Positions 12,283 to 13,659 of a stretch of DNA of 43,179 nucleotides are shown here, in pieces. The stretch is from Clostridia bacterium (lineage in GTDB: Bacteria > Bacillota > Clostridia > Oscillospirales > CAG-272): contig JAFTOI010000037.1 of NCBI GenBank assembly GCA_017463865.1, forward strand, positions 1 to 43,179. Reading direction: 5' to 3'. The notes under the pieces were generated by a model. The model did not search any database. It had not been told where the DNA came from and saw only the letters and a program-made list of their open reading frames with translations. The position numbers and the translations under genes are program-made. The first letter of the stretch is position 1. Every line of letters starts with the position of its first letter.

Positions 12283-12579
12283 TCAAGATTGATTTTCCGA
12301 TTTGAACTGACCTTGATACTCTCCAATTGCAGCAAGAAGCAGGCGAACGCCGAGCTGAAAGCCCGAGATAAAGGCGTCTTCTGTTTCAATGGAGCACATT
12401 TTATTTTTCAGAATATCGAATTGATCAAAATGCTTCTGATCGTCGGGCGACAGATTTATTTTGAAGTATTCGTATTCGTGGTGCAGACACTTGGTCAGCC
12501 TGTCATATTCGCTGCCGTCAACAATGGTTCGCAAATCGGTATTGATCCTGCCTCTGTACAGCGCTTCCAGAATGTGCAT
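12283..12579 (-). CDS. DUF6809-like small protein
   Basis: A 98-residue, mostly helical, charged protein beginning MHILEALYRGRI, with EYDRLTKCLHHEYEYFKINL and ending SGFQLGVRLLLAAIGE. The N-terminal LEALYRG and C-terminal FxxGFxLGxRLLLA pattern fits DUF6809, a family of unknown function common in gut Clostridia. The start is set at 12579 rather than the upstream ATG at 12600 because AAAGGGGGTG lies 5-8 nt before it. It has its own promoter at 12605-12633. It sits directly downstream of the PBECR4 gene on the same strand, but a palindromic repeat and this promoter separate them. No function is proposed. Confidence 0.72.
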   Translation of the reverse strand: MHILEALYRGRINTDLRTIVDGSEYDRLTKCLHHEYEYFKINLSPDDQKHFDQFDILKNKMCSIETEDAFISGFQLGVRLLLAAIGEYQGQFKSENQS

Positions 12580-12604
12580 GTTCGCACCCCCTTTCGACAA
12601 TATG

Positions 12605-12633: not shown

Positions 12634-12702
12634 TTGGGAAAGTGAGACAGGTTAATTTTTCAGCAAAAAACATGCGCAAATTTCTGCGCACGGACGAAAC
12701 AA

Positions 12703-12780
12703 GTCTGTCATTCTGAGGAACGACGCGACGAATAATCTTTGACGGAGGAAAAGATCCTTCGCTTCGCTCAGGATGACACG
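12703..12780. repeat. Dispersed ~75-bp palindromic repeat, copy 1
   Basis: It begins GTCTGTCATTCTGAGG and ends CTCAGGATGACA. The two halves are imperfect inverted repeats able to fold into one long hairpin. A second copy is at 28115-28191. Translated, it gives the CHPERSEGSF-type peptide often mis-annotated as a gene. Confidence 0.85.
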
Positions 12781-12847: not shown

Positions 12848-13438
12848 TTAAATCGGAACTTTTTCAGATAATTTTTGATATTGTACTTGCCTCTCTCCAG
12901 TACGCTTGTTCACTTTTTCTTTATAAAGCAAGGTAAGCCTCATCTGTCCATTCGCATAGTCTGTCTTTCCCTTTTCAAAAAAGGACTTGCAAAACTGCCT
13001 ATTCCCGCCATGCCGCCGTTCTGTAAACAAATAGAAGGTTTTGTCATGATGCTCTGTTTGCAGCAAATAGTCCGCAATGATTGTGGAGTAAGCCTGCATC
13101 GTATGTAAATTGCAGCGGAACACTGACCTATTATCATCCAAAATTGCTTCAAGCTGATCAAAATCAGCAAACCTGCTGCCAAGCTCATCAAAAAATTCGC
13201 TCTTCATCAGCATTTTATCGGTGATTTTTCCTTTCAGACAATCCACGAAAATAGATGCCGCTGAACGTTTTAATTCCCGCAAGTCACGCATTTTATGCAG
13301 TCCGATCAAATGCAAAAAATCATCCCTGTCAAAATCAAGCACAAATTCATACAGCACATTTTTTCTTCCAAGACGGATGATGTATTGATAATCCAATAAC
13401 CGCCGAAAAGCGACTGCACTCCGCTGTATCTGATCCAT
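12848..13438 (-). CDS. PBECR4-domain putative RNase-like protein (toxin candidate)
   Basis: A 196-residue soluble protein. The segment YEFVLDFDRDDFLHLIGLHKMRDL (about residues 30-53) and the layout after it fit the PBECR4 domain (phage Barnase-EndoU-ColicinE5/D-RelE-like nuclease). That family is defined from phage and conjugative-element conflict proteins; its biochemistry is mostly predicted. Candidate polar residues include His43, His48, Lys49 and the C-terminal TERRHGGNRQFCKSFF region. The start at 13438 is set by GAGGTGG on the minus strand about 6 nt upstream; the longer frame would read through a terminator. Directly upstream are a structured RNA and a Rho-independent terminator behind one consensus promoter, so expression depends on terminator read-through. 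That layout matches type III toxin-antitoxin loci. Confidence 0.72.
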   Translation of the reverse strand: MDQIQRSAVAFRRLLDYQYIIRLGRKNVLYEFVLDFDRDDFLHLIGLHKMRDLRELKRSAASIFVDCLKGKITDKMLMKSEFFDELGSRFADFDQLEAILDDNRSVFRCNLHTMQAYSTIIADYLLQTEHHDKTFYLFTERRHGGNRQFCKSFFEKGKTDYANGQMRLTLLYKEKVNKRTGERQVQYQKLSEKVPI

Positions 13439-13450
13439 ATCAACCACCTC

Positions 13451-13484
13451 AAAAAGAAAAGCTCTGCCGGGGAGGCAGAGCCTT
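13451..13484 (-). terminator. Rho-independent terminator between the RNA and the PBECR4 gene
   Basis: On the minus strand: stem GCTCTGCC / GGCAGAGC (extended by G.T and A-T pairs) with a TCCCC loop, followed by TTTTCTTTTT. It ends about 12 nt before the PBECR4 start codon and only just upstream of its ribosome binding site. Confidence 0.85.
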
Positions 13485-13624
13485 GTATGTTTTCTGTCTG
13501 CACGTCCTGCGTGCATAAGTCAGCTTGAGGTTCACATACAACCCTTCGAAGGCTAATACGGCACGGCACGCTGACGCAACACCGTATCTCAACGCCTGAC
13601 GGCCACTCGAGTTGACCGTCTTAC
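13452..13624 (-). ncRNA. Structured RNA upstream of the PBECR4 gene (candidate RNA antitoxin or leader)
   Basis: A ~170-nt transcript is predicted from a perfect promoter to a terminator. Visible pairings, 5' to 3': GACGG with CCGTC and, interleaved, TCAAC with GTTGA, which together would form an H-type pseudoknot. Then ATACGG with CCGTAT; the palindrome CCTTCGAAGG; and TTGTATGT with ACATACAA enclosing a GCACG/CGTGC hairpin. GTCAGC and GCTGAC offer a further long-range pair. There is no convincing small open frame and no clear tandem repeat. It could be an RNA antitoxin, a cis-acting attenuator or an unrecognised riboswitch. I do not match it to a known RNA family. Confidence 0.6.
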
Positions 13625-13630
13625 ATTATT

Positions 13631-13659
13631 ATTATACACGATGGACGCCGATATGTCAA
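13631..13659 (-). promoter_or_regulatory. Perfect consensus promoter of the RNA-PBECR4 unit
   Basis: On the minus strand: TTGACA (13654-13659), exactly 17 nt, TATAAT (13631-13636). It is the only perfect consensus promoter seen in the window. It starts 15 nt past the stop codon of the MBL-fold gene. Confidence 0.85.

Follow-up and report, generated by a model that had tools for sequence, protein, structure and literature searches.

Drum RNAs Upstream of PBECR4 Genes: A Candidate Type III-Like Toxin–Antitoxin Module

Introduction

The structured RNA drum and the gene for the predicted RNase PBECR4 form one module, which is quite probably a type III-like toxin–antitoxin system, with the RNA as candidate antitoxin and the protein as candidate toxin. 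The pair recurs in numerous gut bacteria and on plasmids, and some phage sequences have drum alone. As read from sequence, the module would function in a type III-like manner, and no claim is made for membership in ToxIN, CptIN or TenpIN. The locus was analyzed within a contig of 43,179 nt from a Clostridia bacterium (JAFTOI010000037.1), referred to here as the window, for which the original prediction had proposed a type III-like module on the basis of a promoter, a possibly pseudoknotted RNA, a terminator and a PBECR4-like gene. This proposal holds in part: it is favored by the conservation of the RNA, a sister clade with repeat RNAs, plasmid copies and phage drums that lack PBECR4, and disfavored by the absence of a detectable relation to ToxN and by a weak small pseudoknot (PK1). 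Further points against it are that drum lacks tandem repeats, that PBECR4 has no significant PDB match, that 11 of 24 drums in the class have no PBECR4 match behind them and that four PBECR4 leaders belong to neither RNA class.

Organization of the Locus

On the minus strand of the window the promoter, the structured RNA, the terminator, the ribosome binding site and the PBECR4 gene follow each other at close spacing (Table 1), so that the general layout of type III systems, with one promoter, an RNA, an intrinsic terminator and a toxin gene, is present at the level of sequence. The perfect promoter and the Rho-independent terminator that had been predicted are both found, as is the predicted PBECR4-like gene, which matches Pfam PF18813 and has its own ribosome binding site (GAGGTGG, 5 nt ahead of the ATG at 13438). 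The RNA was identified as drum (Rfam RF02958; 13482-13597, minus strand) at 74.9 bits (gathering score 43) and over model positions 1-112 of 112, whereas promoter and P0 lie beyond the boundaries of the Rfam model. A riboswitch or another known leader was considered and rejected, since the sole Rfam match at gathering scores in the window is drum, which is typed in Rfam as an sRNA gene. The source genome (67% complete) contains a single drum and a single PBECR4 match, both at this locus. Downstream of PBECR4 lies a DUF6809 gene (12283-12600, minus strand), and the stretch between the two (12660-12780) resembles a dispersed REP-type repeat by eye.

Table 1. Positions of the module and of the RNA elements in the window.
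Feature	Position	Strand	Details
Sigma-70 consensus promoter, TTGACA-N17-TATAAT	13631..13659	minus	12 of 12 consensus matches
Predicted drum transcript, candidate RNA antitoxin, ~176 nt	13448..13623	minus	ends inferred from promoter and terminator
P0, 5' hairpin	13598..13620 (13620-13614 with 13604-13598)	minus	upstream of the Rfam drum model
PK1, small pseudoknot	13591..13613 (13613-13611 AAC with 13593-13591 GUU)	minus	weak
P1	13550..13597 (13597-13594 with 13553-13550)	minus	encloses P2
P2, hairpin	13587-13576 with 13567-13556	minus	inside P1
PK2, pseudoknot	13519..13575 (P2 loop GUCAGC, 13575-13570, with GCUGAC, 13524-13519)	minus
P3	13485..13539 (13539-13534 with 13490-13485)	minus	variable hairpin P4 inside
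P4, variable hairpin	13514-13500	minus	observed in a few relatives besides the window
Intrinsic terminator in the RNA–gene interval	13448..13484	minus	stem 13484-13458, 11 pairs, then TCTTTTT
PBECR4 gene, candidate toxin, predicted BECR-fold RNase	12848..13438	minus	196 aa

The same elements recur at other loci. Across 79 distinct regions upstream of drums, the promoter agrees with the consensus at 12 of 12 positions in 39 and at 10 or more in 57, while the best score was 9 in a control with one letter shuffle per region. As a crude test for terminators, TTTT was found in 67 of 75 homologous RNA–gene spacers. Strong promoters together with a terminator before the gene fit an excess of the RNA over the toxin mRNA.

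Structure of the Drum RNA

The fold of the 176-nt transcript has a z-score of -2.77, with 3 of 200 shuffled sequences folding equally well. An extended drum model, termed R1 and built from 20 sequences, scores the window RNA, one of its training sequences, at 109.1 bits, in a comparison that covered 75 chosen sources. Covariation was counted in 82 matches aligned to R1 (80 distinct sequences), using a corrected P1, which is one column off in R1. P2 is paired in 92.1% of cells and shows double changes in 12 of 12 pairs; the corresponding values are 95.3% and 3 of 4 pairs for P1, and 74.8% and 6 of 6 pairs for P3. The 6-bp PK2 is paired in 89.1% of cells, with double changes in 6 of 6 pairs, and it is this interaction that makes drum a pseudoknotted RNA as known from type III systems. 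The H-type pseudoknot of the original prediction fared unevenly: its GACGG/CCGTC helix (P0) stands, with 93.1% of cells paired and double changes in 7 of 7 pairs among the 80 distinct sequences, while its TCAAC/GTTGA loop pairing (PK1) exists in the window sequence but is weakly supported, with 73.1% of cells paired and double changes in 1 of 3 pairs. PK1 and PK2 were absent from the alignment model, so that the alignment does not favor these pairs, unlike P0, P2 and P3, which were part of it. For the whole structure, covariation reaches 0.600; shuffles give 0.269, and sliding the structure gives no more than 0.145. Tandem repeats as in type III antitoxins were not found in the window RNA, whose self-alignment stays below the maximum of the shuffles, in agreement with the predicted lack of clear repeats.

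The k-turn of drum has been shown to fold with magnesium and to bind L7Ae in vitro (PMC8191799). In addition, drum has served to illustrate structure prediction (PMC7657543; PMC11974997) and the Rfam families obtained from metagenomes (PMC7779021), and the available portions of these four papers state no function for it. Likewise, no publication linking drum with PBECR4 was found in the accessible text of open-licence PMC papers.

The PBECR4 Protein

The product of the window gene matches PF18813 over profile positions 1-187 of 188 (E=1.4e-35), scoring 123.8 bits against a curated cut-off of 27; it has no match in NCBIfam or PADLOC, and a PDB sequence search with PBECR4 returned nothing significant (best E 0.98). 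PBECR domains of phages and mobile elements are described as predicted RNases with a BECR fold, which occur mainly within polyvalent proteins, with solo versions in phages being mentioned (PMC5512222); in the main text of that paper, as available, the strings “PBECR4” and “noncoding RNA” are absent. Among 65 aligned PBECR4 relatives F36, H43, G46, D52 and S80 are invariant, and the matching stretch of the repeat group likewise has an invariant histidine, in 8 of 8 proteins. PHROG 3446, a family of unknown function, matches 59 of the 65 relatives; L076, which carries a stop codon, and the plasmid rows were left out of A5. PBECR4 is not detectably homologous to ToxN: hhalign gave 1.3% against 13 Pfam ToxN_toxin relatives, compared with 97.1% in the positive control, namely the drum clade and the repeat clade of PBECR4 against each other, which are homologous.

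Conservation of the Drum–PBECR4 Pair

A scan of genome contigs with the single window protein yielded no relative; relatives were later found with the PBECR4 alignment A1, and the best 80 of 146 were taken as a protein-first set, in which the loci are not independent, several being contigs of the class survey or of R1 training and some being near-copies. R1 matches at 76 of these 80 loci (weakest match 38.6 bits), and at 75 of them drum is located 36-139 nt before PBECR4 on the same strand, with a median spacing of 49 nt and 64 of the 75 at 42-62 nt, so that the conservation of the RNA upstream of PBECR4 homologues, on which the original prediction hinged, is borne out. At the 76th locus (L105) drum lies 1526 nt from PBECR4, with a transposase-like gene in between. 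By eye, the four loci without drum (L071, L098, L111 and L115) lack the N-terminus, have a broken frame or abut the end of a contig, and no protein-selected locus combines a clearly intact PBECR4 with the absence of drum. Treponema, which belongs to another phylum and in which several drums are low-scoring, accounts for many of the 80. Among 38 other loci, L160 is alone in having a drum-model match at E <0.01.

In an RNA-first set of 391 genomes of the class, 19 genomes hold a total of 24 drums and 29 genomes a total of 31 PBECR4 matches. Thirteen of the 24 drums directly precede PBECR4, for which the chance expectation is, by our own arithmetic, far below one; these include G181, where the drum is just below the gathering score and PBECR4 is only a fragment, and G197, where the reading frame starts late. 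In 398 genomes of the phylum, a set overlapping with that of the class, drum is present in 3 and PBECR4 in 4, with one further pair (G419). Of the 31 PBECR4 matches in the class, 13 have drum and 8 have direct repeats. Weaker drum matches precede PBECR4 in G087 (at the gathering score) and in G080 and G342 (E ~0.01), and the leaders of G131 and G360 are homologous to those of the latter two. The PBECR4 of G305 is truncated and without RNA, and the copy on G016:C39 has two stops and no locus. Four leaders, those of G217, G168 and G386 in the class and that of G683 in the phylum set, match neither RNA class; the leader of G683 lacks a drum match and appears promoter-led, structured and terminated. 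By eye, all four leaders are structured and terminated (L035 1180-1458, L050 1200-1473, L052 1200-1482 and L150).

Protein identity and RNA identity correlate with a Spearman coefficient of 0.76, against a permutation maximum of 0.34, in 44 pairs (44 of 65 proteins, those with an RNA in alignment A4). This correlated divergence shows co-inheritance and says nothing of binding. Strict pairing and co-inheritance would also suit a drum that acts as an activating scaffold or guide in a drum–PBECR4 ribonucleoprotein effector against foreign RNA, and so would a large conserved RNA whose k-turn folds in vitro (PMC8191799). Such a role is nonetheless improbable: no variable guide segment is evident among 30 aligned drums viewed out of 82, drums without PBECR4 exist, and loss of an activator should be tolerated, so that the lack of a clearly intact drumless PBECR4 at the 80 loci counts against it.

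A Sister Clade With Tandem-Repeat RNAs

In G097, G199, G340, G371, G016:C33, G051:C12 and G268, the PBECR4 leader contains two direct repeats with a period of 52-65 nt and repeat scores of 30-67, while 20 block shuffles reach 21-26 at most; the PBECR4 of G268 is a broken copy. The leader of G295 carries a marginal 32-nt repeat (23 versus a shuffle maximum of 21), a drum leader is also marginal in this respect (G349, 23 versus 22), and no repeat was scored in the leader of G217. The repeat of L034 was missed by TRF and found by pairwise self-alignment. A similar repeat array, followed by a terminator and then the gene, is seen by eye in Erysipelothrix phage phi1605. In all seven repeat leaders checked, 5-8 base pairs of differing sequence form a closing helix, a count in which two of the seven are near-copies and which has no shuffle control. 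A tblastn search with a repeat-clade protein found no plasmid.

In a 34-row tree, the repeat group together with G217 splits off at 100/100. When drum-like RNAs are pooled into drum and three rows with unassigned RNA are omitted, the RNA class changes once on this tree; when the four labels are kept apart, five changes are needed. Long branches were flagged by the tree tool for G168, G386 and G087. Since type III antitoxins consist of tandem repeats (PMC5086642), a feature which the sister clade shares with its two 52-65-nt repeats, this clade is the strongest link of PBECR4 modules to type III systems. One could also imagine drum to be an sRNA gene of no relation to PBECR4 that happens to travel in the same mobile cassette, as the drums without PBECR4 might suggest; this is hardly credible, given that 75 of the 80 loci, in two phyla, agree in order and strand and have a median spacing of 49 nt, and that the RNA class tracks the protein tree.

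Drums Without PBECR4 and Phage-Borne Copies

Eleven of the 24 drums of the class survey are not ahead of a PBECR4 match. Two of these (G223 and G306) are followed by what appear by eye to be broken PBECR4 remnants. The drum of G016:C14 and four similar copies in G239 sit past the 3' end of one gene type, which in G016:C14 matches phage endolysins, and the drum of G048 sits after a homing endonuclease gene; those of G239:C83, G217 and G035, with no PBECR4 behind them, fall into none of these groups. Three drums, two of them strong and one weak (37.5 bits), are set among the tRNA genes of viral contig G391 (104,556 nt), which also has genes for an RNA ligase, a terminase, a portal protein and an integrase. 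A PBECR4 match is absent from this record, which may be a fragment. On the minus strand of this contig (L063, 6524-6616 and 9598-11897), a Skipping-rope RNA and the tRNA array are interleaved with the drums, and the RNA ligase belongs to phrog_968. In contig G775 the drum is cut by the contig end and a PBECR4 match is absent. By contrast, viral contig L147 has both drum and PBECR4, L148 has PBECR4 with a weak drum match (22.7 bits), and the prophage-like contigs L214-L216, found by a DNA pattern, have drums of 77.7-92.4 bits followed, by eye, by a PBECR4-like gene that is full length in L216 and shortened or broken in L214 and L215.

A tblastn search with the window protein found no phage record. 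The viral pattern match L056 was rejected as a drum, being inside a coding sequence and without a model match, and the Clostridioides difficile phages phiCDIF1296T and AR1086-1 were not counted as carriers at only 21.6 bits. In the latter two (L191 and L192, 2968-3055) a short, weak drum-like stretch follows soon after tail-region genes, and a phage-labelled fecal record (L193, 2901-3046) has a drum-like RNA of 43.1 bits before a partial ORF that looks AlbA_2-type by eye.

The pattern is one-sided: drum occurs without PBECR4, and a clearly intact PBECR4 without drum does not occur at the 80 protein-selected loci. Free-standing copies are to be expected of decoys or relics, unlike of a leader, which bears on the idea that drum is a cis-acting leader sensing a ligand, a protein or a stress and setting read-through of the terminator, with no need to bind PBECR4. 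A cis-regulatory role predicts much of the same pattern, as the order of RNA, terminator and gene is constant, the spacing is close and the RNA is complex and pseudoknotted. We consider it unlikely, because drums without PBECR4 are found among phage tRNA genes and after endolysin-like genes, because Rfam types drum as an sRNA gene and because a tandem-repeat RNA replaces drum in the sister clade.

Plasmid Copies and Neighboring Genes

PBECR4 is present in 20 plasmid records, 19 from Enterococcus and one from Streptococcus suis, and in 5 of 5 inspected records, which represent only about three distinct RNAs, a drum above the gathering score lies just upstream of it. On plasmids, PBECR4 copies were seen next to an AbiH-annotated gene and next to genes annotated as TIR-domain, DUF6414 and AAA-ATPase proteins (L058 3305-4492 and L061 1-2272), a neighborhood that resembles defence islands. 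At another locus, an ORF resembling a ToxN/AbiQ toxin by eye (L122, 4188-4748) adjoins two tandem drum–PBECR4 modules, the second of which has a broken frame.

Comparison With Known Systems

The abiF and drum motifs both reportedly stem from the same 2017 survey. This survey is cited in a study showing that the abiF RNA motif upstream of AbiF is an RNA antitoxin (PMC12373285). In this C. difficile system, AbiF/RCd22 (abiF RNA motif RF03085), a short main transcript is likewise followed by a terminator and the toxin gene, and RCd22 acts in cis and in trans by binding the AbiF protein, according to the available text (PMC12373285). The partners are different, however: AbiF belongs to the Abi_2/HEPN proteins and is paired with an RNA of two 36-37-nt motifs, whereas PBECR4 is preceded by a single drum of ~145 nt.

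ToxIN, CptIN and TenpIN resemble drum–PBECR4 in having one promoter, an RNA, a Rho-independent terminator and a nuclease gene, as well as a pseudoknotted RNA, as described in the accessible part of PMC5086642. Unlike their antitoxins, drum is single-copy and larger, and it contains a k-turn as well as a loop pseudoknot that covaries. Another system called type III, AvcID, comes near to drum in RNA size, with a minimum of ~171 nt for AvcI, and the word “repeat” does not occur in the available main text; yet AvcD is a deoxycytidylate deaminase and no terminator is predicted before it (PMC10511110), in which drum–PBECR4 differs. A precedent for phage-borne antitoxin RNAs is the pseudo-ToxI of phage TE escape mutants, which silences a host type III toxin, as set out in the available text (PMC5086642). 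These mutants are spontaneous, whereas the free-standing drums occur in natural phage or prophage-like sequences and would be decoys by inference.

Proposed Mechanism and Implications

For the type III-like reading, we infer an abundant RNA, a toxic protein with RNase activity, binding between the two, a trigger and a decoy role, as follows. From the very strong promoter, a highly folded drum RNA would be made in abundance; most transcripts would stop at the intrinsic terminator, and the rare ones that read through would supply PBECR4, a predicted metal-independent RNase, which the drum RNA would bind and keep inactive. When drum synthesis stops, for example upon phage shut-off of host transcription or plasmid loss, PBECR4 would become free, cut RNA and stop growth. 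Phages with drum copies of their own may then provide the antidote in trans.

It is an even call whether drum–PBECR4 represents a new toxin–antitoxin superfamily of Bacillota, Spirochaetota, plasmids and phages, with a switch between tandem-repeat and single-copy k-turn antitoxins and with natural phage drum decoys that disarm it, located among tRNA genes and behind lysis genes. If the type III-like reading is correct, a structured RNA for which the accessible text states no role would gain a concrete and quickly testable function, and a candidate toxin family would be added to the RNA–antitoxin systems. One toxin tree would unite repeat and single-copy antitoxins, and phages would be predicted to carry ready-made RNA antidotes.
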